In this document: positions 5,527 to 25,163 of the stretch, one piece after another
Layout of the letters: each line of letters starts with the position of its first letter
How positions within the stretch are numbered: position 1 is the first letter of the stretch
DNA from: a virus
Length of the DNA: 25,163 nt
Virus record (IMG/VR): IMGVR_UViG_3300008116_000288
Location: 1 to 25,163 of that record
Direction: 5' to 3' (one strand)
Program-made: the position numbers and the translations under genes
The notes under the pieces: generated by a model
Seen by the model: the letters and a program-made list of their open reading frames with translations, nothing else
The model's database searches: none
What the model was told of the DNA's origin: nothing

Positions 5527-5543
5527 TTGATAGAGGATAACAC

Positions 5544-5993
5544 ATGGCAACTTACTTGGGATTCAGCACGCAAAATGCATGTCAACCAAAAACGACGAAC
5601 GCTACATCAGGCAGTGCAGGCGGCCCGGGCGGAATTCGCACAGGTATTAATTGGGGTAAAAAATACAGTTTAGTAGACAATGATCTAGTAATACAAGATT
5701 TTATTAACGCTCTCAACATACGAAGAGGGACTAAAGTAGGTCAGCCTGGCTATGGAACTATATTGTGGGACTTATTGTTTGAACAAAACGTAGCACAAGT
5801 TCAAGATGACATTGAAAATGAAGTAAGAAGAATCGCTAGACAAGATCCTAGAATGGTGTTCAACATGGTTAGGTCTTATCCATATGAAAACGGAATTCTG
5901 ATAGAAATTCAGATGGCTGTACAACCCATAAACCAGCCTGTAGTTATTAAAGTAAACGTGAATATTCAAGAGAGTACAGCCACTTTAGTATAA
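5544..5993 (+). CDS. gp25: gp25-like baseplate wedge protein
   Basis: This 149-residue protein belongs to the GPW/gp25 family, present in the baseplates of contractile tails and related injection machines, where it joins the wedges to the hub and sheath. The diagnostic stretch is visible: DLVIQDFINALNIRRGTKVG at 47-66, QPGYGTILWDLLFE at 67-80, then a helix (VQDDIENEVRRIARQ) leading to the conserved DPR at 101-103, and closing beta-strands (ILIEIQMAV, VVIKVNVNIQ). T4 gp25 has 132 residues. The excess here is mostly a Gly/Ser/Thr-rich N-terminal segment before residue 32. AGAGGAT lies just upstream of ATG 5544, and a second Met does not occur until DPRM, so the start is secure. It sits directly before gp6, with which gp25 interacts in known baseplates. 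Confidence 0.94.
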   Translation: MATYLGFSTQNACQPKTTNATSGSAGGPGGIRTGINWGKKYSLVDNDLVIQDFINALNIRRGTKVGQPGYGTILWDLLFEQNVAQVQDDIENEVRRIARQDPRMVFNMVRSYPYENGILIEIQMAVQPINQPVVIKVNVNIQESTATLV

Positions 5994-6011
5994 AACACGG
6001 TTTTTTTCTAT

Positions 6012-6019
6012 GATAAATA
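6012..6019 (+). promoter_or_regulatory. Candidate T4-type late promoter before gp6
   Basis: GATAAATA matches the T4 late promoter box TATAAATA at 7 of 8 positions. It stands in the largest intergenic gap of the window (47 bases) and on the coding strand. Transcription would begin about 10 bases downstream, just before the GAGAGA ribosome site (6031-6036) of gp6. T4 late promoters need no -35 element, and none is seen. The evidence is sequence similarity and position only. Confidence 0.4.
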
Positions 6020-6040
6020 TATTATCAATAGAGAGAAACT

Positions 6041-9000: not shown

Positions 9001-9409
9001 AATGTTGTCGGATTCCGTAATATTAAATAGTGTTGAGTTCAAGCCATTGTTTGGACCTAAAGCTGACCCAGCGTTGCAAGCAACGATCAAAGTAGTAAAG
9101 GTAAGTAAAGTTAATGCTAGTGACAGTGAAATTAGAAGTGCAGTGTTGGCTGCAATGAACAATTATTTCAACATTAATAATTGGGACTTTGGTGACACAT
9201 TCTATTTCTCAGAGCTTAGCGCATATCTACATGCTGAATGCGGAGACCTGATCAGTTCCGCAGTGTTAGTACCAAATGATCCTACCATGAGTTTTGGAGA
9301 CTTATATGAAATAAAGTGCAGACCATATGAAATCTTTGTCAACGCTGCTACAGCAAATGATGTATTAGTTGTACCGGCACTCACTCCCGATGAATTACAA
9401 ATAAGATAA
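6041..9409 (+). CDS. gp6: gp6-like baseplate wedge protein (enlarged)
   Basis: gp6 proteins dimerise between neighbouring wedges to close the baseplate ring around the hub. The N-terminal signature is clear at residues 36-110: LRKAFIDYLQVYYPETFNDY, SSEFVALLDVIAFMGQ, RNDLNARENFIDTAERRDSV. A baseplate-J/gp6 motif follows at about 405-434 (ARESIAEIKQRAPTRYYTQN and MVNGEDY). The C-terminal block (about 1007-1085) has SDSEIRSAVLAAMNNYF, NNWDFGDTFYFSELSAYLH and LISSAVLVP. At 1122 residues it is much longer than T4 gp6 (660). The surplus lies mainly between about 440 and 1000, a beta-rich Asn/Tyr-rich region I cannot assign. The start is supported by GAGAGA five bases before ATG. The gene ends eight bases before the giant gene, consistent with one operon. 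The identification is secure; the role of the insert is unknown. Confidence 0.93.
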   Translation: MATSSRQSALFGLNDWKTIYQTFNQADFRSYDYETLRKAFIDYLQVYYPETFNDYVESSEFVALLDVIAFMGQGLAFRNDLNARENFIDTAERRDSVVKLANLVSYTPKRNIAGQGYLKVTSISTTQNITDINGLNLSNVPVLWNDPANPNWLEQFNTIINAALINTQRIGRPGNVSEISGITTNEYSIQIAPNALPIVPFNATVNNTNMNFELCSVTSIDEDYVYEIPPAPSGRFNMLYRNDKLGFGSPDTGFFFYFKQGSLQTFDFALQQQIANQTINIDIQGINNTDTWLYKINQDRSRDLWRKVENVYADAYLQNESSARQIFSVSSRFNDQVTYVFGDGVFSEIPVGNFRAYVRAGNALTYTIYPTDMNGLSVAFTYISRLGRAETLTLGLSLTQTVTTAQARESIAEIKQRAPTRYYTQNRMVNGEDYNNFPYTLYSSIIKSKAINRSSIGVSKNLDLLDPTGKYSSTNSFGSDGALYQDDTDGFLNLTINNTSDIIAFFTNTLASVLSLNRASQYYIQNYPRYDVNTSTGDGVVYWKTSSVDTSSESGYVYNVSGSLETPINVGTFNTNNLKYLTTGAIVKFNAPAGFYFDSDNRLKAGIPGPSDSTFIWTTILNVVGDGSNNGEGSFANGSGPIVVSGYVPDGVVLTQIIPVFGNNIPASVIQECLIRMELNQDFTLVFDNSLMINQNRWSIKKFTDPNWFVKFTSVGLNRYSITYRSLTYYFASVADTRFTFAKNELVYDPFSGKIIQDFINVLGINALPNNTTPLGKDTKVNILGQTVESDGYVNDFQVEVAATDVNNRQLILNPDFFNEITGYVSGGSNIGIYTFFETVQDPINLTRQYLIPTSSVMSQYPTQTQIELVKYDYPLGQLFYAYGENKFYKTVQDQTVTVPFYYLVEQLQYSVKPGRQGLSYQYRHNSNNTNRIDPVTTNIIDLYVVTQSYYTAYQNYIVDSTNTIPEPNRPTLTELTQEYNQVQNYKMLSDSVILNSVEFKPLFGPKADPALQATIKVVKVSKVNASDSEIRSAVLAAMNNYFNINNWDFGDTFYFSELSAYLHAECGDLISSAVLVPNDPTMSFGDLYEIKCRPYEIFVNAATANDVLVVPALTPDELQIR

Positions 9410-9417
9410 GTAGATAC

Positions 9418-9867
9418 ATGGCTAGAGTAAGAACATTAAATTTCCTTCCGGAAATATTTCAGACCCCCACTAACGCTGAATTTTTAGCAGCGACCCTGGA
9501 CCAAATTGTTAGTAATCCAGTAACAGCTAAAGTTCAAGGCTATGTTGGTAGTAGATTTGGACCGGGTATAAATGCGCTTGATTATTATGTCACCGAGCCT
9601 ACCAAAGTTCGCACAGACTATCAATTAGAACCCGGGGTAGTATTCACTAAGCCTGGTGAAAGCGTTGCACGAGACTTCATTACATACCCTGGCATTGTTG
9701 ACTCACTAAAAATCAGCGGTGCAGTAACTAATAATAATGATCGTTTGTTCCAAAGCCAGTTCTATTCATGGGATAGCTTTACGAATCTAGACAAGCTTGT
9801 GAACTATCACGAGTACTACTGGATTCCAGCCGGTCCTCCTGCTGTTACAGTTTCTAACTCAGTAGTC
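9418..9867 (+). other. Conserved N-terminal block of the giant protein
   Basis: Residues 1-150 contain LNFLPEIFQT, TNAEFLAATLDQIV, YVGSRFGPG, YYVTEPTKVRTDYQLEPGV, DRLFQSQFYSWDSF and LDKLVNYHEYYWIP. This order is the hallmark, from memory, of giant virion proteins downstream of gp6 in marine T4-like phages. Being N-terminal and conserved, it is the likely anchor to the baseplate, which is inference. Confidence 0.6.
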
Positions 9868-12800
9868 TTTACAAACGAAGATTATCTAGTAACTGATTTT
9901 GCTAATAATTACGAAATCTCAGAAGTAGGTTCTCAGATTGATTTAGGATCAAACCCAACACTATCTCTATTGCGTGGCGGCACGTACACGTTTACGGTAA
10001 ATCAAGATAGTCAGTTTTGGATTCAGACTGAACCTGGCACTAGCGGCTTTGAAGCAACTCAGCCCAATATTCCTACTAGAGAAGTGTTTGGTGTTTCAAA
10101 CAACGGCGAGAATAATGGCACAGTAACGTTTGTTGTACCACAAAAGAATGCACAAGATCAATATATTTTCCCCGGCAACAATGTTGTTGACGTAGTTTCT
10201 ACATTACCATTCAGTCAGGTAAATGGTCAAAGACTCTATACTATCACTGATCCTGCAACCGGAATCACCTATCCCGGATTACAAGAAATTGATGGTGTAT
10301 CTGGGTTAAATGGATTGCGTGTAATGTTTTACGACACTGGCGCAGTCGATGAAATTGGATATATCTCATCTTACTATGATGAAACATTCTATGACGTAAA
10401 CGATCCATTCTTTACTAACCCTGCAACAGTAGTTGTTGCTAGCACTAGCGCAGTCAATAATGCATTGACCGTAGATACAGGATATTCAACTGGACCATTA
10501 ATATTAAATCAGACTATTACAATTTCTGGGACTCCGATGGGAGGTCTTGTACCGGGTCAGGTATATTTTGTTAAAGAAATCTTGAGTTCAACAGAGTTTA
10601 CTGTTTCAGAAAGCATTGAGGGTGCGACTGTAACATTGTCCACTCAGAGTGGCGTAGACATGGTCGTGAATATCAATCAGGGTCAGTTTGAGCAGGGCTT
10701 CTATTCTACAGTAAACGAGAACTTCTATAGAATTCAATTAGTAGGAGATCCTAACAATCCTGTACTAAGATTAATTCCAGATGGATCTATCCCTAACAAT
10801 CAAAACATCGTTCCTCAGTTTGGTGTTCAGTGGATTAATCGTCCATTCTATCGCAATACACTGGGAGTAATCTCACTAGTACCTCAGATTACAGCGCCGA
10901 AAGATATTCTATACTATCAAGATGGTTCTAACCCCAACAAAGTTGGCATCTTGAAAATTATTGAAAATAATGGTAAAGATTATCTAGATGTTGATACGGA
11001 AATTTTAGGTAAGATTAACTATACTTCTCCAAATGGTGTTGCATTTACAAATGGCTTAAAAGTTAGCTTTGACGGAAACGTGTTTCCTGTTAGCTATCGC
11101 CGCGGCGAATACTACGTAGAAGGTGTTGGCACCGGAATTGAATTAATTTCCGTAGAAGATTTAATTTGCCCTGAAGGATTTACTATTGGTGACTATATAC
11201 CTTGGGATTCTTTGGGCTTTGATATCGGTAACTATGACATTAATTTATTCTTGCCTATTGAACAAGATTATATCACTATTGCTAGAAACAGCATAAGCAG
11301 AAATGCATGGTCTAGAAGCAATCGTTGGTTCCATATTGATGTTATTAACGCTACTGCAAGCTATAATAAAAATCCTGCAATATTAACAGAGTTTGCAACA
11401 CAGGAAAATAAAGCTAAAAGACCTATCATTGAGTTTTATCCAAACCTAAGATTGTATAACGGTGGCTCAGTAGGTAAAAGAGCAGTAGATTTCTTTGACA
11501 CTAGAGAACCAGATGCACTCACTAACGTTGCTGGACTATACAATTATTATCCCGACGTTGAGACGTATACTACAAACACTGCGGTAGTTGCTCCTACCCC
11601 GACAACAATTGTTGCAGTAAGTGCAATGCTTGCCGGCGAGACTTATGTAGTTGACACTGCATTTGGCACTTTGCAGCCTGTTTGGAATACGCTTGCTGGC
11701 ACTGAGGGCGTTACCTATGTTGACGGTGACGTAATTACTTGCCAGGTAGACGGCAGCACAATTGCTGTTCCTGGCACCGGTCTAGCAAGACTGTTGTATG
11801 ATCAAACAACGATTGTTGTGCCACTAGACGAAGTTACCGGAACGTTCCAAATCGGGATGTACACTGGCGACACACTAAATCTAGTTCCCGTAAATTCACA
11901 AATTATTAACCTTTCAGATGACGGTACGGATCTAACAATAACAGTTAACTGGCCATATCCTCAGGATCTAGTAGGCGGAACAACTAGCATCGTTGGCACT
12001 GATACTACAGCTAGCAACTACGCAGTATTCCCTGGTGCAAGAATCATTTTTGCAAATGATACGGATGCCGAAACAAGCACTACCATTTATGTAGTAGATA
12101 TCGTAGAATTAGCACCTGGTCAAGAACCGGAAATCGTATTAACTAGAGCAGAAGACGCTACCATTGAGATTGATGAGCAAACTGCAATTTCTAGAGGATA
12201 TAATTATCAGGGCAAGACATTCTATTATGATGGAATTGAATGGCTAGAAGCTCAGCAAAAAGTTACGGTAAATCAAGCTCCGTTATTTGATGTGTTTGAT
12301 GACAACGGCATTTCTTTTGGCAACCCAGAAATCTATAACAGTACAACATTTAAGGGAAGCACAATATTTTCATACGGTATTAATCCATTAACCGTTGACG
12401 ATCCTATTTTAGGCTTCCCAGTGCGCTTTAGCGACATTGGCAATATCGGTGACATTAGCTTTGACGTAACTCTTAACTCAGATACATTTGACTATGTGCG
12501 TGGTTTTGAGTCTATCACTCAAAAAGTAAACACCGGTTATGTTCACAACACTACTACACGTACAGAATATCAGAGAGAGTTGGGTTGGCAAACAGCAGTT
12601 GCTCCTAGCACGCAGTATCAGATATTCAATTTCAATTATCAAATTGAAAACCCTACATTAGTTTATACGTGCGATGTTCAAGCATTGCCTGACTTATTAC
12701 CAGACGAGCAGGGCTGGACTAGTGTTCAGGTATACTACAACAATGTTTATCAAGAGCCTAGCAATTATACAATAACCCGCTACGACAATGCAACTAGTAT

Positions 12801-15800
12801 TACATTGATCAATCCGCCCGAAGAAACTACGGTAGTACAAGTTTTGGTATTGAGTGATCAAGTAAGCAACAATGCTTACTACATGACACCTATCAATCTA
12901 AACAACAACCCATTCAATGAAGACTTGACAGTTGCAGATTTAGGTGATATCAGAAATCAATACCAAGACATATTTGTAAACGCACCCGGCACGACCGGCA
13001 ATATCTTTGGTGTAAACAACTTTAGAGATTTAGGCAATCTAGTTCCATATGGAACTAAGATCATTCAAAACAGTGCAAGTCTTGCAATACCCGGTGCATT
13101 CCTGCGTAAGTCTAATCACGACTTGTTAAACGCATTGTTGTTCAACAGCCGCGAATACGTAAAGTATAAGCAATTGCTTGTAGATACTGTGCAAAATACT
13201 GATTATGTACAACGTTATACTCCTGCTGACATTCTAGACGATGCAATTGAGCAAATTTCTGCTAGCAGAAGTGAAACCAGCGCATTCTTCTGGTCAGACA
13301 TGTTGCCTAACAAGAGTCCATTCAGAGTCAACACTTACAAGTTTAACAGTAACAATGATGTAACTAGATATCCATTGAGTCAAGTTTATAACTTTGAATC
13401 AGCAAATTATAATGGCGTACTAGTTTATCTTAACCGCACCGTTGACAACAACTTAGTGCAGAAGCAATTACTAAGAAATGTTGACTATACAATTAGCACT
13501 GATAGTCCCACATTAACTATCACATTAGATTTGGTACCTGGTGACAGCGTTGTAATTAAAGAATACAATCAGACGTACGGTTCATATGTTCCTTATACTC
13601 CAAGTAAGTTGGGGCTATATGCACTACACCAGCCTCAGGTAGTATTGGACAGCGACTATACTGTTCCAACATACTTCATTAAAGGTCACGATGGATCATA
13701 TACGAAGTTGTATGGTGACTATATTCCTGAGCTAGATGTTCTTATTGACTTCAGAGACCAAGCATTGCTTGAGTTTGAAAAGAGAATCTACAATAACGTA
13801 AAACTAAGCACCGAAGTTCCTATCAAGTTCTATGATGTACTTCCCGGCTTCTTTAGAAATAGTGACTATAGCTACGATGAATGGCTACAGATGTATTCTG
13901 TAAACTTCTTGAATTGGATTGGTCAGAACAGATTAGACTACAAGACTCAGTTCTATAACAGAAACAACGAATTCACATACAACTATACCAACGCACAAAA
14001 CAAGTTGGATGGCTCCCCTATTAAGCAGGGATATTGGAGAGGTCTATACGAATATCTATATGATACTACTACTCCTAACTTGACCCCTTGGGAAATGCTA
14101 GGGTTTGCTGATAAGCCTACGTGGTGGGAAGATCGTTATGGGCCGGCCCCATACACAAGCGACAACCTAGTATTGTGGGGAGACGTTGAAGCAGGTATCG
14201 TGTATTCAGAAGATGGCACGTTCACTGTTGTTCCTGAATTAGCAAGACCGGGAATCACTAATATCATTCCTGTTGACACAGCAGGTAATTTGCTCAGCCC
14301 ATTATTCTCTGTTGTCGGTACTTATAATCCTAGCACTTTCCAGAAAGATTGGAGAGTTGGTGATGATGGTCCCGTTGAATTAAGCTATCGTCGTAGCTCA
14401 ACATATCCGTTTGACGTAATAAAATTATTCGCATTAACCCGCCCGGCGGAGTTTTACAACTTAGCAGTTGACCTAGACAACTACAAATTTAATGCCGAAT
14501 TCAATCAGTATTTGGTAAACAATAGAACCCATTTGATTCCTAGCGACATTGAAGTGTATGGTAACGGCACTGCTAAAACTTCCTACATCAACTGGATTGT
14601 TGACTATGAAAAGCAATTAGGCATTGACTCAACCGCTAACATCACTAGCTTGCTTGATAACCTAGACGTTAGATTGATCTATCGTTTGGCAGGATACAGT
14701 GACAAGACAATGCTTAAGTTCTATGTTGAGAAGGGTTCTCCCAATAGCAACAATGCAGCGTTATTAATTCCTGACGAGAGCTATTCAGTATTACTATATG
14801 ACAACCAGCCATTTGACAAAATAACATTTTCTAGTGTTATTGTTCAACAAGATGTTGACGGCTATAAAGTATTTGGTAACTCTCAGAACATTGCTTACTT
14901 TACGACATACGCCCCGCTTAATAATGGCAATTACGAAGATATTACTGTAATCAACCAAAGAGTTAAAGTAAACAAAGATCATTCAACTCAAGAAGTATTA
15001 GTTCCATATGGAACTAAGTTCTATAGCGCCCAAGAAGTAGCTCAGTTTATTATGAGCTATGCTGCATACCTAAATGATAAGGGTATGATTTTTGATAAGA
15101 TTGAATCTGGCGTAGAGATTAACTGGAATCTTATGGTACAAGAGTTCTTGTACTGGACGCAAACTGGCTGGGATGTAGGTAGCATCATTACATTGAACCC
15201 ATCCGCAACAGATTTAAATGTCAATAGAGACGGATACATTGTACAGCCACTGACATTGCAGCAGCAAAACTTCATTCTTAATCAGGATCTATATCCGATT
15301 CAGCTTAACAACCTATGCGTAAATCGTGATGGGACTTCATTCAGAGTACACACATTGAACGAAGGTGATTCAATGTCTTATGCTCAGTTCAATGTCAGCA
15401 ACTTTGAGCATGGTATTGTGTTTGATAACACTACCTTGTTCAATGACGTTATCTACAACCTAACAACTGGTCTAAGACAGAATAGAATTACTTTGCGCGG
15501 TATGAAGACCGCAGAGTGGAACGGTACAGTAGATACTTGGGGCTTTATTCTAAATCAAGACAACGTTCAAGAATGGGCCCGTGATATCAAGTATCCTAAG
15601 GGAATCATTGTAAAGTATAAGAACAAGTATTGGACTGCATTGAGACTCGTAGAACCATCAGCAGTATTCAATGAGCTTGATTGGAAATTGGTAGACTACC
15701 AAGATATTCAAAAGGGACTGTTGCCAAATAGTGCAACCCGTTCATATGAAAGCACACTGTACTATAACTGCAACGAAACTAATCTTGAACAAGATGCAGA

Positions 15801-18800
15801 CTTGTTGTCCTTCTCATTGATTGGTTATCGTCCCCGTGATTACCTTGCTCTTGCAGACTTGACAGATGTAACGCAGATCAACGTCTACAAGAACATGATT
15901 AAGAACAAGGGTACACGCAATGCTACTCAGGCATTTGATGGTGTAAATCTGCCGCAGGGCGGAATCCAGTACAACGTTTATGAAAACTGGGCTATCAAGA
16001 ACGGCGAATATGGCGGAGTACTAAATGATAACTTTGTTGAGTTCAGACTTGATCAAAGCGTATTGACCGGCAACCCGAGCATTGTGTCACTTAATAACGG
16101 TGTGTATACTCCAGGGGCAATGCAGGAAGTTTCATTGTACGACCTATTCAATTATGGCGATAATGTTACCGATCCTAACATACTAGCCACTGTCAATACC
16201 GAAGCAACTGACATTACATATCCTAGCGCAGGTTATGCAAACTTTGATGACGTAAAAATGTCATCATTCTACTATGCAGGATTGCCAAACGCCGTTGATA
16301 AGTCAGGTAAGGTAATCCCAATACAGAATTTCTATGTAAGAGACTACTTCTGGTTAGCAAACTTTAAAGAAAAGTGGGGCATCTATACTTGGAATCCAAT
16401 CGGACAGGTGGTTGCTGCAATCGGTAATGTAAACGGAACCACCACAATCCGATTCTCACAACCGCACAATTTAAAGAAATTAGATCCTATTGCGATTGTT
16501 AATTTCTCAACAACCGTTGATGGTTACTATTTGGTTTCCGATATCATTAACCTCAATGAAGTAATAATCAATTTAAATCTGCCAAATCTCAACAGCGGCA
16601 ATGTATTGCAGGGACTTGGTGTAGGTTTGTTAGTAACTAATCAAAGAGTGAACAAGCCATCTGACATTGAATCTTTATCACTGTTAGAAGCAGAGTTTAC
16701 TAAGAATACAGTTTGGGTAGACGAGAACACTGATGGTAGCTGGGCAGTATATCGCAAGAATATCAACTATCAAAATACTGGCGAAATTTATGTTGACAAT
16801 TCAACAACGTTTGGTTCAAGCGTAGCCTATACTGATATTGTGGGATACTTGATCGGTGATCCTGGCGCAGGCAAAGTACACAGATTCTATTACAACGAGT
16901 CTACAAACGAGTATGATTTGGCCCAAGTAATTACCAAAACAAGTTCGTTTGGCTCTGCTATTGCACACGCAGGTAACACATTTGTAATATCTCAACCCAC
17001 CGGAACTCCAAAAGTCTTTGTGTATATTTGGAACGACACTACTGCAACTAACAACCTAATTCAGTATCAAGAAATTGCAGCGCCTGGCGGAGTAACTGAT
17101 TGGGGAAGTAAGATTGCTATCTCAGGTGATCAGAATTGGATTTATATCTCTGATTATCTTAATACCAATGTATACGTATACCGAAAAGATAACACAGAAT
17201 TTACTGCTGGATATTTCACTGTAGGACAAACTTACACAATTACTAGTGTGGGAACAACTGACTTCACAACAATCGGTGCCCCGCAGAATAGTGTAGGCAT
17301 TACATTCGTTGCTACGGGAATTGGTACCGGAACAGGTACTGCAACACGAGTGACATACCAAGAAGCAGCAGTGATTGATGGAAGTTTGCTAGGATTAACC
17401 AATAGTGATGGATTTGGCAAGTCAATCTCAACCAGCTACTATGGGGACAGAATATTCATCGGTGCACCAAACAAAGATCACGCAAATGGCACGACCGATA
17501 ATGGCGAACTATATTTCTATCAACGTTCTGTGCAGAACTTTGAAGCGCAGTATACTACAGTTCCTTACTTACCGCACACATTCAATTTAGCATGGACACC
17601 CGATACCGCAGCCGCAAATGTAACTGCAACAAACGGTACTACTGACAAGATTACCCTTTCTACTGTAAGTGGAATGAGTGTGAATGATGCCATTGTTTTT
17701 GTTGGCAGTGGTCTATCTGGTACAGGAATTGAAGAAAACAAAACCTATTACATTGAATCTATCGTGGGCGGCGATATCACCATTAAAACTTCAAGATCAT
17801 CAACTACTGTATTTGGTATTACTACAGTTGCTTCAGTAACCGGAGCTACTGCTTCAGCACAAACCACTCCGTTGTATGTTACTGTCAATGGAACACTAGT
17901 CGCTGATAATAACTATGCAGTAAATGGCAGCAATCTAATTTACAGTGGATTCTTAAGAGCCGGCGATATTGTAAATGTCAGCGGTAATGAGTTCTTCATG
18001 GCGCAAGAATTCAATCCAGAAACTAACGATAGAATCAATATTCAGTTTGGCTATGCAGTAGATACTACGCAATCTTCTGGCGAGTTGTTAATTGGTAGCC
18101 CATTTGAAATCAATGAAGAAATCAAAGAAGGCAAGGTATATAGATATACTGATGCAGGCGCAAGATTTGGCATAGTATTTGGTACAGAAGAATGCAACGT
18201 TTTGGGTTCACGTACTATTTTGATTAACGGATTCGCAGTTAATTTAGCAGCGGGCAATGCCGAAGATACAGCTTCAGTAATTAATGCGACTCAAGTGCCG
18301 AACGTTATTGCTTCTTCAACTAGTGATAACAAGTTAATCATTCAGGTGGCAGACCAGTCATTAGCTCAAATCAACAACAAACTAGTAGTAACTGCGTTTG
18401 ATGATACGACATTGGCAGAGTTGGGCATACAGTCATATAGCTTTACTCAGATTGTTACTTGCCCGCATCGTGAGGGTCCAACTGAATTCGGTAAGTCAAT
18501 CAAGTTTAACGAATTTGATTCTGTTGTTATCGGTGCCCCGGTTGGTGCTAATTTTGTAGGAACTACCTTTGACTTTACCGATGACGAAAATCTAGATAAT
18601 GACACTGTGTTTGATAATAATGCTACTAGATTTGTAGAGAGCTATGCAAACTCTGGTGCAGTATATATGTTTGATTTACTATCAAACTACGAAGGAAATG
18701 CATTAAATCCTGGCGCATTTGTATATGCCCAGTCTGTGAACACTTCTACCTTAAACTTTGACTTCAATCCATATTATGGCTATGCAGTTGACTTCAATAA

Positions 18801-21800
18801 CAATACTGTTGTTGCAGGTGCGCCCAACATGCAAGGCACATTGATCACCGGCGGTCAAGCAACTGGATTTACTAATGCAACTGGTGTCAGAGACTGGACT
18901 GAATATAGACAGTCAGCACCCATCGTTGACATTGAAAAAATTGAAAATACACAGATTTTCAGTGCATTGACAAACGATACTCTTGTAAACCTAGACTACA
19001 TGGATCCATTACAGGGTAAGTTGTTAGGTGCAGTAAGACAGAACATTGATTATGTTTCTGGATCAGACCCGGCAAAATATAATAGCAATAATTCAACCAA
19101 CGGGTATGTTTGGGGAGCAGAGCAAGTAGGACAGATTTGGTTCAATACTAAATCAGTGCGTTTTGTAAACTATCACCAAAACGATGTAGTATACAATAGC
19201 GAATATTGGGGCACTTTATTCCCTGGATCAGATGTTGCAGTTTACACTTGGGTAGCTAGCAACAATACTCCTGCTCAATATTCTGGTCCGGGTGTTCCTT
19301 TTGACGTTACTCAATATTGTGTTGGAAGTACTCTTAATTCTTCTAACATTGTTACGCCGATATATTATTTCTGGGTCAGAAACACCAACATCATTGACAA
19401 ACATCGTGGGAAAACACTATCTGACAATATTATTGCTAGATACATCGCTAACCCAAGAAATTCTGGGATAGCTTATGTTGCACCGTTGCTACCTAATACT
19501 TTTGCACTGTATAACTCAGAAGAATATTTTGACGGCAACAACTCTATCTTCCATATAGGATATGCAAACGGAACTGGATCAGATGTTTCACACTCTGAAT
19601 ACACATTAATTCGTGAAAACTATCCAGATGACTTCTTGCCTGGATTGCCTGCTGTAGCCGACGCTCCTACTACACTGCCATTCCGAGTACTATACCCAGC
19701 AGCAGGCGTAGACGAGCCTAATTCACTATATGCTAGAATGCTAGACAGCTTAAGTGGCACTACAGCGCCCATAACAACACCCGACGGCACTATTGAAACC
19801 GGACAGGTTGTTCCTAATCCGTTCTTACCGAAAGCAGTTCAGTCAGGGGTTCTTGCAAGACCTAGACAGAGCTTCTTCTTTAATAGATTTACGGCTCTAC
19901 AGAATTATCTTACCTATGCCAACGAAGTATTAATCCAGTATCCGATAGTAGAATTGAGACCTAACCTGTCATTCATTTTTGCGCAGGGTGAATTCTTTGA
20001 TACTGCTAATTATTGGACTTATGTCAACTGGTGGCTACCAGGGTATAACAATAGCACTAGAGCGGCGTTGCAGGTTCCGATTTATGCTGATTTGGCAGAA
20101 TTGCGTGTAGCTCCGGGGACTATTGTTAAAGTAGAACAGAACGGTCAGGGTCTTTTTGAATTTTATAGATATGATGACAATGGTGTTTGGTCTAGAATTG
20201 GTCTAGAAAACGGAACGATCCAATTCAATAGCTATCTTTGGGATTACGAAGCTGCTAAGCTAGGATACGGTGGTGACTTCTTTGACACTACGCCGTTTGA
20301 TATCTATCCAAGTGAAGAAACCAGAAACATTGTTCGTGCATTGAACGAGCAAATTTACACCGGTGATTTACTAGAGCATAGAAATAAGAGCTTGGTATTA
20401 CTATTTGAATATATCCAAAGCGAAACCATTGAATCGCAAAATTACTTACCATGGATTAACAAAACTTCATTGATGGATGTGTTCCACACTGTACGTGAAC
20501 TAAAACCATACGAAGTGTTCAAGAGTGACAATGTTGCTTTCCTAGAAGGATACATCAATGAAGTCAAGCCTTATCACGTAGTCATTAAAGAATTCTTAGT
20601 AAAGTACACTGGAATTGAAGAATTTACCGGTGATATTACAGACTTTGATGTTCCGGCAACGTATAGCCCAACATATCAAGAGTATATTAGTCCGCAACTA
20701 GTTTATAGTGATCCTAATAATCGCTATGAATATGAATACGGTAATGATATTTGGGCCACTGCACCATACACACAGTGGTATCAGAATTATGGATTGTCAA
20801 TCACTGGCGAACCCAACTACAACATAACTACCCTAAAAACATATATGGATTTGGGAACTAGAACTATGATTGTAGACAACGCTAGTGGCTTCCCAGTTAA
20901 CGGTGTAATCAGAATCGGAGACGAATCTATTGCATATAGTTATGTTGACCGCGACTTGAATTTGTTAGGTGGATTGTCAAGAGGGTTCAATCAAACTGTA
21001 GTTGCTCAACATATTCCCGGTGCAAATATCTTTATTGATCTTCCTGCTGTGGTAGTGTTAAACGAGGGTAGCGGCTATACAGATGTTCCTCAAGTAACAG
21101 CGTATATTGATACTGCGATTTATCCGGCACCCAGAAAAGAAGCTATTCTACAGGCAGTAATGAGTGGCGACCGCGTCTCTGCTGTTAACGTAATTGATCC
21201 GGGCGAGGGGTATGCAGTTCTTCCCGAAATCAGAATTTCTACTGCGTATAGCGTACTCTTTAGTGATGCTGATATTAACCCTGCATTGCACACCATAAAT
21301 CTATATGCGCCTTCTTTCGTGACCGGCGACTTAGTAAAATTCACTCAGGGTTCAAACGGCGGCAAACCAAACTTCTTAGTTAATGATCAGTGGTACTATG
21401 TTGGAGTTCTAGAGTCATTGCCATCCGTCATTGTTGCATTATATAACAGCTATAGCGATGCAGTGAAGGATCAGAATAGAATTCAGATCACACCTGGCTT
21501 AGCATCTAGCGACATGGTACTGTCTCCGGGTGCAAGAGCATCTATTGTAACGTCATCTTCACCAATTCGTGAAAACAATATCACTTTGCGCTTTGACAGA
21601 ACAACATATGGTTCTCAGGTACTTGATTGGGAATCAGGGGCGTTCTATGGTGCATTCTTTGCAGGAACATATTACAACAGTGACAAGATTTCAAGCTCTG
21701 CTATCACGCTTGAAAGCACCGAGCCTGATATCAATAATATTCTTGCAAGTGCCCAAGGTGTAGCCCTACAAATCTCTGACGTAGAAAATGATAGACAGCT

Positions 21801-24800
21801 TACATGGTCTTCTACTATAAGATATGTTGAGAAAACAAATAGCTCAAATGATTCTATCAACTTAGTTCCTGCCGCAAAAACATTTGTTGGTACAGCTACA
21901 ATTGCAGGCACAACAATGAATGTAACTGCAATTAGTGAGGGAACTGTAGTAATTGGTACATATGTGTATGGTCCAATTATTGATCCTGATACTCGCATTG
22001 TTTCGCAGATAAGCGGGACACCGGGCGGAACAGGCGTGTACGAGGTTTCAATCAGTCAACCTGAGACTATTGTAGTTAACGAAACAGTATCCTCATCTGG
22101 TTATATTGTAATGGAATCAACAAGTGGGTTCAGTATAAATGATGTAATAATCTTTGATGATATTGTTACCACAACCGGCACAACTAATATCGTTCCTGGA
22201 ACAGTGTATTATGTAAAACAAATCATCAGTGGTACGGAACTTACATTATCAACTGCAATTAATGGATCACTATTCAATCCCGGCAATTGGACAGGAAGTA
22301 TGTCAGTCGTCGGCTCTGCTGTAAATGGATATGAATTGAATGCTGCTGGAACCACTGTTGGTTTCTATGTAGACATGCCGATTAAGTTTGTAGGAGCTGT
22401 AGTAGGTAACCTTGCTGAAAACGAAACTTATTATGTTTCTGCAATTCATAACCCTATTCAATTCTCAGTTTCTACAACTCAGGGCGGCCCAACCGAAATC
22501 TTGATTAGTGAAACTGTGAGTGCGCAGGGACTAGAATGCTACACTGGTCAACTTGTAGACACTGCTATATTAACTTTAGAATATCCTGGAATTCTAGAAG
22601 TAACTACAACACAGGCTACTGTTAACACATTGACTGTTCCAATGTCACCCGTAGGCACTGGTGGAACAACAGGTTTCTATACTAATCTTCCAGTCTTCTT
22701 TACTGGGCAGGTGTTTGGTGGAATCATTGAAAATTTGGATTATTATATAACAACTGTTGTTGATAACGAAACTTTCACTATCAGTGAATTCAAAGATCCG
22801 GTTATCACAGAAATCTCTGAAACAGTTGCATCAACAGACACTATCGTAGTAGAATCCACAACCGGCTTTGACTTGAATGATCCTATCATTATTACATCGC
22901 TAACCGGAACGTTAGCATCAAGTAATATTGAGTCTGGAAGAACTTACTACGTAAGTGAAATCGTCAGCAACACCGAAATGACTATTTCAGAATTGGTTAA
23001 CGGAACAGTATTGTCGCTCAATAACGGTACTGGAACTGCAATTCTAACCAATCAAAAGAATACAGTTCAGTTGACTAGCGAAACTGGTTCAATGACCATG
23101 AACGTTTCACTGCCTGTAAGTCCAGGACAAATCAATGGTCAGCTATTCACGCTATATCAGACTGCTGGACAGTATCCTGATATCGTTTCTGAAAACTATT
23201 CGGACTTGATTGAAAGAACAATTCGTGCTACAATCGGAACGAACTATACTGTTCCAGTTAATAGAATTGCAATCCCAGAATCAGAAGGTGGAACATTTAA
23301 TTTCTACGTTAACATGCCATTGCGAGTAAACAGTGCAGTGGGTGGATTGAGTACCGGTGTTACCTATTATGTAACTGAATATTCGGGAGAAGAAATACCT
23401 GATCCTGAAAATCCTGGGGAGACAATAGCACGACCAAACATTCAGGTAGAAGTTAACACTACTTCTTCAGTAGGAAACGTATTAACCTGTGCATACGATG
23501 TAGGAAGAAATCTATTAGGAACTACATCACTATACATCGGTATGCCAATCGTATTCTCTGGAATTGGATTGGGCGGAATTGTTATTGGACAAGAATATTT
23601 TGTTGAAAGCATCGTTAGTTCCACTGAGTTCACTATCTCTGAAACTGATGGCGGCACAGCAAAGACATTATCCACCGCAAACGGTATTATGATGGGTGAT
23701 GGTAACCCATACATCATCATATCTACTAGTAAGGGCGGAAGTGCAGTAGCTTTAACTAATGATACTTCAGCTTCTTCTAGCTTCACTCAGTTTATAACTG
23801 GGACTCCCGAATTCAGTTTGTCATATGTGTTGGGTGGATACACTGCGATAATTACTAATCCCGGTGAAGGCTTTGCAATCAACAATGTGATTACTGTTTC
23901 CGGAACTGAGGTAGGCGGAACAACCCCGGCCAACGACATTACACTAACGGTTAACACAGTAGATGATGACGGCGGGATTACATCTGTAATAAGAACCGGT
24001 ACTCCTCCCGCATCAACGCAGCAGTACTATCTACAGGTGCGCTCAGAAAATACAGTGGCGGTATACAACAACTCATTGATGACTGTTCCGGTTAGCGGCA
24101 TTGCTTTCCCGTTTGTAGGATATACTGAATCAACAGTTACCAATTCTACTACCGATACACTAACAGTAGACACAACTGGATTCAGTAATTATGATGCAGT
24201 ATCATTTAGCGGTTCAATACCTACTGCATTTGATATCGGTGAAACATACTATCTGTACAATGTAACTTCTACAACTGCTCAAGTAACGACCACTCCAAAT
24301 GACGCAGGTACGATTGTTTCTGGAATCACATTTACTGATGATTTTATGATGGCTAAGCTAGGTAGCATCGCATTACTGCCCGAACCATTCTACTTCAATC
24401 AGAGCATTGTCAAGTTTAACAATAGAGTTTATGAATGCGTCATTTCTAACAACGATGACGAATTCATTTTCGGTAAGTGGGAGTTGCTTGATTCAGGTGA
24501 TCGCAGATTGAATGCAATGGATCGTGTAATTGGATACTATCAGCCTACCGTGGACATGCCTGGGGTAGACCTCACACAGTTGTTTGAGGGTGTCACGTAT
24601 CCTAATTCTACATATTTAGGTAATGCTTTCCAACCAAACCAGCAGTATCCTCTTGATACTCAGTTGTCTGACTTGCCATTCTACCCATCTGAGGTAGATA
24701 TTACTGGCATCGTATACGATGGCGAAAAGTATATCTCTAGCGCAAATCTACCAACATATAGTGCTATTATCGGAAGCTTAGATAATCAGAATTGGGGAGT

Positions 24801-25163
24801 AGGCAGACTAACTAATAATCCTGTCAACTTGACAGATATTACATATGCGGGCGGAATCTATTTAATGACTTCTGCTAACCCAGCAACTCCTATCTATAGA
24901 AGTACTGACGGTATTTCTTGGACAACAACCGGATACTATACGCCAAATGATCCTTCTACTGCATTGTCAGTTGCGACTATGCCTTTGAATTCAGTAGCAT
25001 ATTGCTCAATGGGTCAGGCTTGGGTAGCAGTAGGTCAGAACATACTTCGCAGCACAGATTCATATCTGTGGGATAAGATAACAGATTTTAATCCTGCATA
25101 CGAATATCAATTAAATGCAATAGCTCCAATTACTGGTACTAATTGCATGGGACTTATTGCAGT
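9418..25163 (+). CDS. Giant multidomain virion structural protein, over 5,248 residues (3' end outside window)
   Basis: The frame runs from ATG 9418 to the right edge with no stop: 5,248 complete codons, roughly 570 kDa by average residue mass. ATG 9418 is the first possible start, since an in-frame TGA lies at 9391, but its ribosome site is poor (only AAGTAG-like). The N-terminus (LNFLPEIFQTPTNAEFLAAT) and blocks around residues 1558-1570 (WEMLGF...WW), 2135-2169 (IGYRPRDYL...KGTRNA), 3192-3199 (LDYMDPLQ) and 3682-3720 (KTS...EVKPYH) match my memory of giant structural proteins of marine T4-like phages. Between them lie a cupredoxin-like segment, an FG-GAP beta-propeller, small repeats and an Asp-box region, listed separately. 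Cysteine is very rare (about a dozen). No enzyme motif or transmembrane run was noticed. Position right after gp6 equals T4 gene 7, so a baseplate-attached adhesion or sensing role is likely but inferred. Confidence 0.88.
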   Translation, partial: MARVRTLNFLPEIFQTPTNAEFLAATLDQIVSNPVTAKVQGYVGSRFGPGINALDYYVTEPTKVRTDYQLEPGVVFTKPGESVARDFITYPGIVDSLKISGAVTNNNDRLFQSQFYSWDSFTNLDKLVNYHEYYWIPAGPPAVTVSNSVVFTNEDYLVTDFANNYEISEVGSQIDLGSNPTLSLLRGGTYTFTVNQDSQFWIQTEPGTSGFEATQPNIPTREVFGVSNNGENNGTVTFVVPQKNAQDQYIFPGNNVVDVVSTLPFSQVNGQRLYTITDPATGITYPGLQEIDGVSGLNGLRVMFYDTGAVDEIGYISSYYDETFYDVNDPFFTNPATVVVASTSAVNNALTVDTGYSTGPLILNQTITISGTPMGGLVPGQVYFVKEILSSTEFTVSESIEGATVTLSTQSGVDMVVNINQGQFEQGFYSTVNENFYRIQLVGDPNNPVLRLIPDGSIPNNQNIVPQFGVQWINRPFYRNTLGVISLVPQITAPKDILYYQDGSNPNKVGILKIIENNGKDYLDVDTEILGKINYTSPNGVAFTNGLKVSFDGNVFPVSYRRGEYYVEGVGTGIELISVEDLICPEGFTIGDYIPWDSLGFDIGNYDINLFLPIEQDYITIARNSISRNAWSRSNRWFHIDVINATASYNKNPAILTEFATQENKAKRPIIEFYPNLRLYNGGSVGKRAVDFFDTREPDALTNVAGLYNYYPDVETYTTNTAVVAPTPTTIVAVSAMLAGETYVVDTAFGTLQPVWNTLAGTEGVTYVDGDVITCQVDGSTIAVPGTGLARLLYDQTTIVVPLDEVTGTFQIGMYTGDTLNLVPVNSQIINLSDDGTDLTITVNWPYPQDLVGGTTSIVGTDTTASNYAVFPGARIIFANDTDAETSTTIYVVDIVELAPGQEPEIVLTRAEDATIEIDEQTAISRGYNYQGKTFYYDGIEWLEAQQKVTVNQAPLFDVFDDNGISFGNPEIYNSTTFKGSTIFSYGINPLTVDDPILGFPVRFSDIGNIGDISFDVTLNSDTFDYVRGFESITQKVNTGYVHNTTTRTEYQRELGWQTAVAPSTQYQIFNFNYQIENPTLVYTCDVQALPDLLPDEQGWTSVQVYYNNVYQEPSNYTITRYDNATSITLINPPEETTVVQVLVLSDQVSNNAYYMTPINLNNNPFNEDLTVADLGDIRNQYQDIFVNAPGTTGNIFGVNNFRDLGNLVPYGTKIIQNSASLAIPGAFLRKSNHDLLNALLFNSREYVKYKQLLVDTVQNTDYVQRYTPADILDDAIEQISASRSETSAFFWSDMLPNKSPFRVNTYKFNSNNDVTRYPLSQVYNFESANYNGVLVYLNRTVDNNLVQKQLLRNVDYTISTDSPTLTITLDLVPGDSVVIKEYNQTYGSYVPYTPSKLGLYALHQPQVVLDSDYTVPTYFIKGHDGSYTKLYGDYIPELDVLIDFRDQALLEFEKRIYNNVKLSTEVPIKFYDVLPGFFRNSDYSYDEWLQMYSVNFLNWIGQNRLDYKTQFYNRNNEFTYNYTNAQNKLDGSPIKQGYWRGLYEYLYDTTTPNLTPWEMLGFADKPTWWEDRYGPAPYTSDNLVLWGDVEAGIVYSEDGTFTVVPELARPGITNIIPVDTAGNLLSPLFSVVGTYNPSTFQKDWRVGDDGPVELSYRRSSTYPFDVIKLFALTRPAEFYNLAVDLDNYKFNAEFNQYLVNNRTHLIPSDIEVYGNGTAKTSYINWIVDYEKQLGIDSTANITSLLDNLDVRLIYRLAGYSDKTMLKFYVEKGSPNSNNAALLIPDESYSVLLYDNQPFDKITFSSVIVQQDVDGYKVFGNSQNIAYFTTYAPLNNGNYEDITVINQRVKVNKDHSTQEVLVPYGTKFYSAQEVAQFIMSYAAYLNDKGMIFDKIESGVEINWNLMVQEFLYWTQTGWDVGSIITLNPSATDLNVNRDGYIVQPLTLQQQNFILNQDLYPIQLNNLCVNRDGTSFRVHTLNEGDSMSYAQFNVSNFEHGIVFDNTTLFNDVIYNLTTGLRQNRITLRGMKTAEWNGTVDTWGFILNQDNVQEWARDIKYPKGIIVKYKNKYWTALRLVEPSAVFNELDWKLVDYQDIQKGLLPNSATRSYESTLYYNCNETNLEQDADLLSFSLIGYRPRDYLALADLTDVTQINVYKNMIKNKGTRNATQAFDGVNLPQGGIQYNVYENWAIKNGEYGGVLNDNFVEFRLDQSVLTGNPSIVSLNNGVYTPGAMQEVSLYDLFNYGDNVTDPNILATVNTEATDITYPSAGYANFDDVKMSSFYYAGLPNAVDKSGKVIPIQNFYVRDYFWLANFKEKWGIYTWNPIGQVVAAIGNVNGTTTIRFSQPHNLKKLDPIAIVNFSTTVDGYYLVSDIINLNEVIINLNLPNLNSGNVLQGLGVGLLVTNQRVNKPSDIESLSLLEAEFTKNTVWVDENTDGSWAVYRKNINYQNTGEIYVDNSTTFGSSVAYTDIVGYLIGDPGAGKVHRFYYNESTNEYDLAQVITKTSSFGSAIAHAGNTFVISQPTGTPKVFVYIWNDTTATNNLIQYQEIAAPGGVTDWGSKIAISGDQNWIYISDYLNTNVYVYRKDNTEFTAGYFTVGQTYTITSVGTTDFTTIGAPQNSVGITFVATGIGTGTGTATRVTYQEAAVIDGSLLGLTNSDGFGKSISTSYYGDRIFIGAPNKDHANGTTDNGELYFYQRSVQNFEAQYTTVPYLPHTFNLAWTPDTAAANVTATNGTTDKITLSTVSGMSVNDAIVFVGSGLSGTGIEENKTYYIESIVGGDITIKTSRSSTTVFGITTVASVTGATASAQTTPLYVTVNGTLVADNNYAVNGSNLIYSGFLRAGDIVNVSGNEFFMAQEFNPETNDRINIQFGYAVDTTQSSGELLIGSPFEINEEIKEGKVYRYTDAGARFGIVFGTEECNVLGSRTILINGFAVNLAAGNAEDTASVINATQVPNVIASSTSDNKLIIQVADQSLAQINNKLVVTAFDDTTLAELGIQSYSFTQIVTCPHREGPTEFGKSIKFNEFDSVVIGAPVGANFVGTTFDFTDDENLDNDTVFDNNATRFVESYANSGAVYMFDLLSNYEGNALNPGAFVYAQSVNTSTLNFDFNPYYGYAVDFNNNTVVAGAPNMQGTLITGGQATGFTNATGVRDWTEYRQSAPIVDIEKIENTQIFSALTNDTLVNLDYMDPLQGKLLGAVRQNIDYVSGSDPAKYNSNNSTNGYVWGAEQVGQIWFNTKSVRFVNYHQNDVVYNSEYWGTLFPGSDVAVYTWVASNNTPAQYSGPGVPFDVTQYCVGSTLNSSNIVTPIYYFWVRNTNIIDKHRGKTLSDNIIARYIANPRNSGIAYVAPLLPNTFALYNSEEYFDGNNSIFHIGYANGTGSDVSHSEYTLIRENYPDDFLPGLPAVADAPTTLPFRVLYPAAGVDEPNSLYARMLDSLSGTTAPITTPDGTIETGQVVPNPFLPKAVQSGVLARPRQSFFFNRFTALQNYLTYANEVLIQYPIVELRPNLSFIFAQGEFFDTANYWTYVNWWLPGYNNSTRAALQVPIYADLAELRVAPGTIVKVEQNGQGLFEFYRYDDNGVWSRIGLENGTIQFNSYLWDYEAAKLGYGGDFFDTTPFDIYPSEETRNIVRALNEQIYTGDLLEHRNKSLVLLFEYIQSETIESQNYLPWINKTSLMDVFHTVRELKPYEVFKSDNVAFLEGYINEVKPYHVVIKEFLVKYTGIEEFTGDITDFDVPATYSPTYQEYISPQLVYSDPNNRYEYEYGNDIWATAPYTQWYQNYGLSITGEPNYNITTLKTYMDLGTRTMIVDNASGFPVNGVIRIGDESIAYSYVDRDLNLLGGLSRGFNQTVVAQHIPGANIFIDLPAVVVLNEGSGYTDVPQVTAYIDTAIYPAPRKEAILQAVMSGDRVSAVNVIDPGEGYAVLPEIRISTAYSVLFSDADINPALHTINLYAPSFVTGDLVKFTQGSNGGKPNFLVNDQWYYVGVLESLPSVIVALYNSYSDAVKDQNRIQITPGLASSDMVLSPGARASIVTSSSPIRENNITLRFDRTTYGSQVLDWESGAFYGAFFAGTYYNSDKISSSAITLESTEPDINNILASAQGVALQISDVENDRQLTWSSTIRYVEKTNSSNDSINLVPAAKTFVGTATIAGTTMNVTAISEGTVVIGTYVYGPIIDPDTRIVSQISGTPGGTGVYEVSISQPETIVVNETVSSSGYIVMESTSGFSINDVIIFDDIVTTTGTTNIVPGTVYYVKQIISGTELTLSTAINGSLFNPGNWTGSMSVVGSAVNGYELNAAGTTVGFYVDMPIKFVGAVVGNLAENETYYVSAIHNPIQFSVSTTQGGPTEILISETVSAQGLECYTGQLVDTAILTLEYPGILEVTTTQATVNTLTVPMSPVGTGGTTGFYTNLPVFFTGQVFGGIIENLDYYITTVVDNETFTISEFKDPVITEISETVASTDTIVVESTTGFDLNDPIIITSLTGTLASSNIESGRTYYVSEIVSNTEMTISELVNGTVLSLNNGTGTAILTNQKNTVQLTSETGSMTMNVSLPVSPGQINGQLFTLYQTAGQYPDIVSENYSDLIERTIRATIGTNYTVPVNRIAIPESEGGTFNFYVNMPLRVNSAVGGLSTGVTYYVTEYSGEEIPDPENPGETIARPNIQVEVNTTSSVGNVLTCAYDVGRNLLGTTSLYIGMPIVFSGIGLGGIVIGQEYFVESIVSSTEFTISETDGGTAKTLSTANGIMMGDGNPYIIISTSKGGSAVALTNDTSASSSFTQFITGTPEFSLSYVLGGYTAIITNPGEGFAINNVITVSGTEVGGTTPANDITLTVNTVDDDGGITSVIRTGTPPASTQQYYLQVRSENTVAVYNNSLMTVPVSGIAFPFVGYTESTVTNSTTDTLTVDTTGFSNYDAVSFSGSIPTAFDIGETYYLYNVTSTTAQVTTTPNDAGTIVSGITFTDDFMMAKLGSIALLPEPFYFNQSIVKFNNRVYECVISNNDDEFIFGKWELLDSGDRRLNAMDRVIGYYQPTVDMPGVDLTQLFEGVTYPNSTYLGNAFQPNQQYPLDTQLSDLPFYPSEVDITGIVYDGEKYISSANLPTYSAIIGSLDNQNWGVGRLTNNPVNLTDITYAGGIYLMTSANPATPIYRSTDGISWTTTGYYTPNDPSTALSVATMPLNSVAYCSMGQAWVAVGQNILRSTDSYLWDKITDFNPAYEYQLNAIAPITGTNCMGLIA
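9961..10170 (+). other. Cupredoxin-like beta domain in the giant protein
   Basis: Residues 182-251 read LSLLRGGTYTFTVN, FWIQTEPGTSG, GVSNNGENNGTVTFVVPQ, DQYIFPGNN. The 'RG.TYTF ... G.VTFVVP...YIF' layout resembles cupredoxin-fold segments seen in phage and bacterial surface proteins. The usual copper-ligand Cys and His are absent, so a structural role is more likely than redox. The match is by eye. Confidence 0.45.
10441..10632 (+). repeat. Isolated N-terminal copy of the YYV/TISE beta repeat
   Basis: Residues 342-405 show the unit LTVDTGYSTGPLILNQTI, ISGTPMGGLVPGQVYFVKEI, SSTEFTVSE. The same order (hydrophobic strand, 'G.v.G..YyV..I.s.t.FTiSe') recurs in tandem more than 11 kb downstream in the same gene, so it appears to be a shuffled module dropped into the N-terminal part. 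Confidence 0.55.
17206..17349 (+). other. GTTDFT-type module inserted in propeller blade 3
   Basis: Residues 2597-2644 (GYFTVGQTYTITSVGTTDFT, TIGAPQNSVGITFVATG, GTGTGTATR) form a self-contained beta segment of a type I recall in many unrelated phage structural proteins. It interrupts blade 3 between VYVYRKDNTEF and TYQEAAVIDG, the latter resembling YQEIAAPG that closes blade 2. Confidence 0.55.
17581..17988 (+). other. Insert in propeller blade 4, containing a YYI-type repeat
   Basis: After the outer strand ELYFYQRSVQNFEAQY of blade 4, about 135 residues intervene before FFMAQEFNPETND resumes the blade. The insert holds one repeat of the YYV/TISE family (ITLSTVSGMSVNDAIVFVGS, then IEENKTYYIESIVGGDITIK) and a second short beta segment (LYVTVNGTLVADNNYAVNG). 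Confidence 0.5.
18154..18432 (+). other. Insert in propeller blade 5
   Basis: Following KVYRYTD of blade 5, about 90 residues (GSRTILINGFAVNLAAG, DTASVINATQVPNVIASST, DNKLIIQVADQS, DTTLAELGI) form a separate unit before the next blade begins at 18472. Its 'iNG..v.L..G...D.a..IN...vp.V.A....n.LiI' order is typical of small beta modules in large phage structural proteins. Confidence 0.45.
20281..20661 (+). other. Conserved KTS...EVKPYH block of the giant protein
   Basis: Residues 3622-3748 contain a mostly helical, charged segment: EETRNIVRALNEQIYTGDLL, LPWINKTSLMDVFHTVRELK, FLEGYINEVKPYHVVIKEFL, KYTGIEEFTGD. It differs from the beta-rich surroundings. From memory it is one of the best-conserved stretches of this giant-protein family, and so a good anchor for homology searches. 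No function is known to me. Confidence 0.5.
20848..21036 (+). other. SRGxxxTxxAxH beta module of the giant protein
   Basis: Residues 3811-3873 carry TMIVDNASGFPVNGVIRIGD, ESIAYSYVD, LLGGLSRGFNQTVVAQH, PGANIFI. The 'fP..G.i.IGdE.i.Y........l..l.RG...T.a..H..G..V' pattern is common in phage tail and fibre proteins. Two 'GxGYxxxP' segments follow directly (NEGSGYTDVPQVTAYI near 21064 and PGEGYAVLPEIRIS near 21199), a second small repeat type. Confidence 0.5.
21883..22062 (+). other. GTGVYEVS-type small beta module
   Basis: Residues 4156-4215 read FVGTATIAGTTMNVTAISEG, TVVIGTYVYGPIIDPDTRIV, then SGTPGGTGVYEVSISQ. I recall the end motif 'GTGGTGTYTVS.SQ' as a frequent mobile module in phage and bacterial beta-rich proteins. 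It immediately precedes the tandem repeat array. Confidence 0.5.
22081..23715 (+). repeat. Tandem array of about six degenerate YYV/TISE beta repeats
   Basis: Residues 4222-4766 consist of units of about 70-85 residues starting near 22081, 22312, 22600, 22819, 23233 and 23455. A shared core is 'f....Piif.g...g.i..g..YyV..I.s.t.fTiSe': VPGTVYYVKQIISGTELTLS, LAENETYYVSAIHNPIQFSV, IENLDYYITTVVDNETFTIS, IESGRTYYVSEIVSNTEMTI, LSTGVTYYVTEY, IVIGQEYFVESIVSSTEFTI. A further copy lies at about 24121-24330 and isolated ones at 10441 and 17617. The repeats are evident at protein level; the DNA has diverged. Each is probably a small beta-sandwich forming a stalk. Confidence 0.65.
24691..25163 (+). repeat. 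Asp-box (BNR-like) propeller segment, cut by the window edge
   Basis: From residue 5092 onward the pattern changes to 'I.y.g..yi........s.i..S.D...W': ITGIVYDGEKYISSANLPTY, ITYAGGIYLMTSANPATPIY, RSTDGISWTTTGYY (Asp-box-like at 5161-5167), VAYCSMGQAWVAVGQNILRS and STDSYLWDKIT (5212 on). Asp-boxes mark sialidase-type and photosynthesis-factor-type propellers. No catalytic sialidase residues can be judged from this fragment. T4 gp7 also has a propeller carrying such a motif (from memory). Confidence 0.55.

Follow-up and report, generated by a model that had tools for sequence, protein, structure and literature searches.

The 25,163-nucleotide stretch of viral DNA analysed here (the window; IMG/VR record IMGVR_UViG_3300008116_000288, positions 1 to 25,163) encodes a giant protein that is probably one intact virion component of the PHROG 10938 family, with a core docked on the baseplate wedge and an arm of modules leading to a conserved end domain. 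The evidence comprises a single frame, its coding signal, its family, its gene position, and its modular growth across relatives. Existing records already cover the family, its gene place, and its virion nature. We add the resolved full length, the layout of core, array, and tip, and the module series, which we did not find in the literature searched.

A single coding frame that ends beyond the window

The frame begins with an ATG at position 9418 of the + strand and stays free of stops to 25161, at the 3′ window edge, a run of 5,248 codons. The first-pass annotation had correctly described it as one frame open for 15.7 kb and leaving the window unfinished. G+C content is even along the frame (0.37 to 0.42). 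By our own arithmetic, stops would make up roughly 6% of random codons at ~40% G+C, and a frame of 5,248 open codons could therefore not have arisen by chance.

Parts of the frame recur in six other IMG/VR contigs (3300031951_000037, 3300031963_000050, 3300042691_009160, 3300008450_000869, 3300008259_003384, and 3300031758_000154), with 99.98 to 100% identity over the shared frame (blastn); the last of these has only 127 bases in common with the window. Their record numbers are different, and we took the six to be independent assemblies. An exception to the match is a 70-base inverted piece at the contig end of locus L065. The entire frame is present in two of these near-identical contigs (L008, positions 524-20680, and the same stretch of L007), where it comprises 6,718 codons and a stop. 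The first-pass annotation had proposed extending the contig to the stop codon, and these contigs place that stop 4.4 kb beyond the window end. The complete product has 6,718 residues, a mass of 735 kDa, and a pI of 4.2. To rank it among the largest viral proteins, as had been done from the window alone, is fair, though huge-phage proteins of the same size class, up to 7,694 residues long and some of them tentatively called structural, have already been reported (Al-Shayeb et al. 2020; excerpts of PMC7162821). Within 40 kb around a weak gp6 match in huge-phage record LR756508, the largest frame had 1,400 aa.

We compared the frame with those of three diverged relatives (L009, L015, and L045) in bins of 400 codons. 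Third codon positions were the most variable in every alignable bin, and second positions were the least variable in all bins but one (L045, 801-1200; 0.19 for first positions and 0.20 for second positions); two N-terminal L045 bins had no alignable sequence. This bias along the frame indicates that the whole frame is selected as protein. We confirmed a single intact coding frame in this lineage.

The long frame is extremely unlikely to be an assembly artefact or a chimera. Its source is a metagenomic contig, and odd contig ends do occur in relatives, such as the inverted end of L065; however, the identical frame is present in other IMG/VR contigs, and diverged relatives have complete homologous frames of 5,798 to 6,609 codons. 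An assembly join within the frame, which the first-pass annotation had named as the finding that could undo its reading, left no sign, and we dismissed the artefact on the evidence from other contigs. We take the IMG/VR contigs to be from freshwater. One scan of genome contigs for a link to a host found no relative.

Baseplate genes next to the giant frame

The following genes, all on the + strand, are relevant to the position of the giant frame.

9418..25163, + strand: giant open reading frame, 5,248 codons in the window, 6,718 aa complete
6041..9409, + strand: gp6-type baseplate wedge gene, 1,122 aa (phrog_10646, E 1.1e-261; phrog_219, E 8e-26)
5544..5993, + strand: gp25-type baseplate wedge gene, 149 aa (phrog_975/261/43, E 4e-7 to 1.4e-6)
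1598..5518, + strand: gp5-like baseplate hub (OB domain), 1,306 aa (profile match)

The giant frame directly follows the gp25- and gp6-type wedge genes, starting at 9418 after the gp6 gene at 6041-9409, and it sits between gp6 and a separate fibre-like gene that is also present. In the hub gene at 1598-5518, the gp5-type profile covers residues 26-422 only, and a separate lysozyme family was unmatched in Pfam and PHROGs scans; much of the rest of the chain is Ala/Ser/Thr/Val-rich by eye. Near-identical loci L058, L060, and L065 have 192 extra bases (a multiple of three) at window position ~1348, in the gene at 25-1584, which the window lacks through either a deletion or a repeat collapse. Locus L059 is without ~140 bases of the gp6 gene (window 6649-6788), either by an assembly fault or as a variant.

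Membership in a known family of jumbo-phage giants

The first 2,500 residues matched phrog_10938 with an E value of 1.1e-209 (profile of 3,324 positions). This PHROG is labelled "virion structural protein" in the category "head and packaging," not tail, a label that speaks against a place in the wedge. A tblastn search with the first 1,000 residues matched 56 of 50,697 phage records, all at <60% identity. The best 40 of these 56 matches were jumbo-phage genomes of, in our own grouping, the Atu_ph07, PA5oct, SCTP-2, and RaK2/121Q kinds, the sole other kind being one shorter Klebsiella phage record. With residues 2701-5248 as the query, 56 records matched again, and among the matches listed it was core block B (~3149-3829) that aligned. 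By blastp, colinear blocks at residues ~1-150, 565-710, 875-1295, 1389-2240, and 3151-3790 were found in all five isolates compared (Phosso, Atu_ph07, PA5oct, SCTP-2, and RaK2).

The isolate proteins have 3,326 (RaK2), 3,323 (121Q), 3,807 (SCTP-2), 3,857 (PA5oct gp355), 4,449 (Atu_ph07), and 4,555 (Phosso) residues. In six of the seven jumbo-phage isolates examined, the giant gene stands directly after gp6. The exception is SCTP-2, whose gp6 homologue lies elsewhere, ~90 kb from the giant, and this counts against a position at the baseplate periphery. Directly before the SCTP-2 giant stands another very large gene (9,291 bases; L005:10633-19923). The RaK2 ORF070-type proteins resemble the window protein by homology over the core blocks (RaK2) or block A (121Q) and by position after gp6, but they have about half its length, are without the YYV module described below (by a profile made from the window protein), and have no recognisable counterpart of its C-terminal 280-aa domain. 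The proteins of PA5oct, Atu_ph07, and Phosso likewise have a colinear core and a gene after gp6, but their C-terminal part is short, and the YYV module was not found in them. Atu_ph07 and Phosso also differ by a ~1,500-aa middle insert. This insert, between core blocks A and B (Phosso, L002:24948-29486; Atu_ph07, L003:24924-29453), is without the FG-GAP match that was seen in five of six IMG/VR loci scanned, the window lineage included; the Atu_ph07 insert gave a weak tail-sheath domain match.

Within IMG/VR, 574 of 576 pattern matches encoded a protein related to the first 1,000 residues, and 80 were kept. The T4-type gp23 capsid family was matched in all three IMG/VR contigs searched (L008, L009, and L088). 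Complete frames of 4,933 to 6,726 codons were present in 12 IMG/VR loci, two near-identical pairs included. Among 131 loci checked, 87 had a longest frame of at least 4,000 aa, and seven had a shorter, uncut longest frame. Three of these seven (L032, L036, and L131) are broken; in the others (L065, L108, L109, and L132), we took the frame to be another gene, with the contig ending early. The remaining 37 of the 131 loci have cut frames. We conclude that the giant is a very long, module-expanded member of the known PHROG 10938 family and not a new kind of protein. Most of the giant structural genes that we met have no annotation beyond "structural" or "hypothetical" protein.

Core, module array, and end domain

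Within the window, the giant frame is laid out as follows.

9418..9867, + strand: residues 1-150, N-terminal segment, conserved among jumbo-phage isolates (tblastn, blastp)
10411..10671, + strand: residues 332-418, first YYV beta module, an N-terminal insertion (HMM)
11110..11547, + strand: residues ~565-710, conserved in isolates (blastp)
13315..13587, + strand: residues ~1300-1390, predicted to fold like the anchor domains of tail fibres (CBA120 TSP4 and others; from a model)
13582..16137, + strand: residues 1389-2240, core block A, the best conserved (profile and blastp matches)
15562..15708, + strand: residues ~2049-2097, predicted chitin-binding-type-3 (CBM5/12-like) module (fold match)
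17404..17517, + strand: residues ~2663-2700, FG-GAP_2 repeat, beta-propeller type (Pfam, E 1.4e-6)
18868..20787, + strand: residues 3151-3790, core block B, conserved in isolates (tblastn, blastp)
22051..24342, + strand: residues 4212-4975, YYV beta module array, some modules partial (chunked self-BLAST, HMM)

The conserved core comprises ~3,800 residues. Block A is nearly constant in length across the family (844 to 862 residues), and the span of block B varies (594 to 793). An AlphaFold2 model of residues 1300-2260 had a mean pLDDT of 57.5, and a Foldseek search of the PDB with the block A model returned no rows at E <= 0.001. Sequence searches against solved structures (A2, A4, A5, A6, and two single segments) returned either nothing or rows with E values of 0.6 or worse. 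For the putative anchor fold at residues ~1300-1390, the best rows had Z scores of 7.1 to 7.7, near background (TSP4, Z 7.4; T7 gp17, Z 5.0). The CBM-like residues ~2049-2097 matched 8fqc_P1 (Z 8.1; rmsd, 0.9 over 45 residues), a small match of near-background Z. The homologue in PP408249 is annotated as chitin-binding type 3; a Pfam match to the CBM5/12 module was absent. The FG-GAP_2 match (28.8 bits against a cut-off of 23) is a single repeat, above the cut-off in three of eight proteins scanned, and suggests a propeller at this place. Sub-threshold Pfam names (Peptidase_M29, Arylesterase, PSII_BNR, and Lactonase) were not relied on. Residues ~5,100-5,560 are a candidate second propeller (PSII_BNR, E 0.078, and TDGxxW motifs by eye).

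Self-BLAST of the whole protein gave nothing useful and was replaced by searches in chunks. An HMM of the YYV module (~85 residues), built from ten copies in the window protein, detected 15 copies in the complete protein (E <= 0.001). Two of these are near residues 332 and 2732, and the other thirteen, of which some are partial, lie within 4212-6439. The C-terminal array, which extends past the window to residue 6439, sits between the core and the conserved end domain, and the extra length of the protein is mostly C-terminal. The part after block B has 490 to 1,075 residues in six module-free members (two further module-free members were left out of this measurement) and 2,928 in the window protein. 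Across 22 long frames (from 26 frames of at least 3,000 aa with both ends inside the locus, duplicates dropped), the YYV number (0 to 15) rises with length; the correlation (r = 0.86) is descriptive only, with close relatives and the broken-frame pieces L036 and L131 included, and the zero counts among distant relatives may in part reflect homology that the profile missed, as it comes from this protein.

All 12 complete frames of 4,933 to 6,726 codons end in a version of the last 280 residues, with 43 to 72% identity to the window protein in other members. This end domain was not recognisable by its profile in isolates or in the distant IMG/VR loci L038 and L039 (E 0.004 to 0.002); the profile was made from 18 members and found most of these again, so that its E values are partly circular. 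Judged from these sequence comparisons, the 280-residue end domain is clade specific and conserved.

An AlphaFold2 model of residues 5930-6718 had a pLDDT of 70.8. In this model, residues ~5965-6035 resemble the fibre-anchor type (TSP4, Z 8.8; rmsd, 1.6 over 63), and residues ~6168-6349 resemble an E1-FCCH-type barrel (Z 10.2; rmsd, 1.4 over 77); both are modest matches. The Pfam family E1_FCCH is below the cut-off in the member shown and reaches E <= 0.1 in 14 of 19. The remaining YYV modules presumably share this barrel type. Matches in a viral model library have long alignments with a large rmsd and are a resemblance in kind only: for block A, they were proteins of uncultured Caudovirales and an Atu_ph07 structural protein, and for the C-terminal segment, they were other long phage proteins, including the "baseplate wedge initiator" of cyanophage Bellamy.

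The position of T4 gene 7

In T4, gene 7 comes after gene 6, and the giant had been assigned at first to the T4 gene 7 slot. That assignment holds for position but not for homology. When three core regions were compared by hhalign with an alignment of six gp7 sequences, the probabilities were 0.1 to 0.3%, and a gp7 profile run over ten records found gp7 in T4 only (1 of 10) and left it undetected in the nine related records. On these results we rejected T4 gp7 homology by sequence. The T4 wedge initiator gp7 (1,032 aa) is thus like the giant in its place after gp6 but has no detectable sequence relation to it. A gp7 or gp8 row was absent among the best 50 listed in each PDB fold list for block A, which excludes nothing.

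The nine related records are six isolates and three IMG/VR contigs, the latter possibly fragments. Pfam gp8 was found in T4 only and was undetected in these nine. The gp9/gp10 N-terminal family was below the cut-off in four of the nine and absent in five. A short gp53-like frame was present in all ten records; its match outside T4 was weak and passed the cut-off in three. In excerpts of its published description, the T4 counterparts of phage CBB include gp6, gp25, and gp53. The first-pass annotation had suggested that the giant might replace several peripheral baseplate and fibre genes. The failure to find gp8 and the weak or absent gp9/gp10 fit the replacement of some peripheral wedge genes, but the gp53-like frame and the separate fibre-like gene remain, so that any replacement would be partial.

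In cyanophage ACG-2014e, a structural protein of 3,495 aa is encoded between gp6 and gp8. It is like the window giant in being a very large structural protein directly after gp25-gp6, but it is not alignable to the PHROG 10938 family (probability of 0.1 to 0.2% against the three core regions), and gp8 is still next to it. Two giants of 3,495 and 2,706 aa (L152:16776-27263 and KJ019054.1 78738-86858, respectively) flank gp8 in this phage. The N-terminal part of the former aligned with the T4 gp7 profile at E 0.011 and a probability of 3.9%, in a KGT-type segment. Giants occupy the post-gp6 slot in two phage groups, and common descent is not implied.

It is unlikely that the giant is a true T4 gp7 orthologue that diverged past recognition, was enlarged by insertions, and acts as wedge initiator. 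The shared place after gp25 and gp6, the weak alignment of the ACG-2014e giant in this slot to gp7, and the failure to find gp7 elsewhere in the nine related records would agree with orthology, whereas the comparisons of the three core regions, both with the gp7 alignment and with the cyanophage giant, argue against it.

Virion evidence and a single chain

The record of PA5oct gp355 carries an "ESI-MS/MS" note. For phAPEC6 gp245 (381.88 kDa), excerpts of PMC7247149 give 17 unique peptides and 7.6% coverage and list it next to the baseplate wedge protein gp244. We infer that gp245 is a family homologue, because 121Q, which belongs to the same species according to that source, has the same gene order. 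CBB_236, which adjoins the baseplate wedge gene CBB_237, was covered by 21 peptides (7.72% coverage; excerpts of PMC5259590). From these relatives, the window giant is likely to be present in the virion; their coverage of 7.6 to 7.7%, with peptide positions not given, says nothing on whether the chain is intact.

Broken frames occur in four relatives, L032 (in five pieces), L035, L036, and L131. Their first pieces have 2,762, 1,101, 2,914, and 3,599 codons, respectively, and each overlaps the next frame. The overlaps and the unequal lengths of the first pieces fit sequencing or assembly indels. The L131 break comes immediately behind the core, where a TTG start overlaps the stop by four bases, and this split may be natural. 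We consider it very unlikely that the giant is a polyprotein that is cut during assembly into several virion proteins. Such cutting would agree with the low peptide coverage in relatives and with the two overlapping frames of L131, but the pieces in the four relatives overlap as indel errors would produce, and each of the 12 complete long members has the C-terminal domain at the end of that one frame.

Proposed role of the giant

We propose that the ~3,800-residue core lies at the baseplate periphery, beside the gp6/gp25/gp53 wedge, where T4 has gp7 and gp8. The core would dock on the wedge, take over part of the peripheral wedge, and hold fibres. A C-terminal string of beads would extend from it, with ~13 YYV modules, the sequence-suggested propeller, and the fibre-anchor-type domain, and would end in the clade-specific, conserved 280-residue domain. 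The beads could make up an extended arm for binding to fibres or surface glycans, with a reach set by module number. We thus infer that the protein is a scaffold at the baseplate periphery with an adhesive arm fused to it; for docking, reach, and binding, we draw on gene position and modest fold matches.

A protein that is only a fibre or adhesin, attached outside and not part of the wedge, would account for the fibre-anchor, CBM-like, propeller, and FCCH-type domains. We regard this as quite unlikely, since the conserved core is far larger than a fibre anchor and the gene is placed between gp6 and a separate fibre-like gene.

More tentatively, a single chain of ~735 kDa may combine two roles, that of the peripheral wedge, where it would stand in for gp7 and gp8, and that of a long arm that binds glycans and whose reach lineages tune by modules, although we hold this fuller version to be doubtful. 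Beta modules would be gained or lost while the core and the tip on either side of them stay fixed. If this is true, and if six copies are present, the giant would add ~4.4 MDa to one baseplate. Two questions are at stake: does a fused scaffold and arm stand in for gp7 and gp8, which are separate parts in T4, and does the number of modules determine reach or binding? The layout of core, array, and tip, together with relatives that have 0 to 15 modules, makes this family a testable case of baseplate growth.
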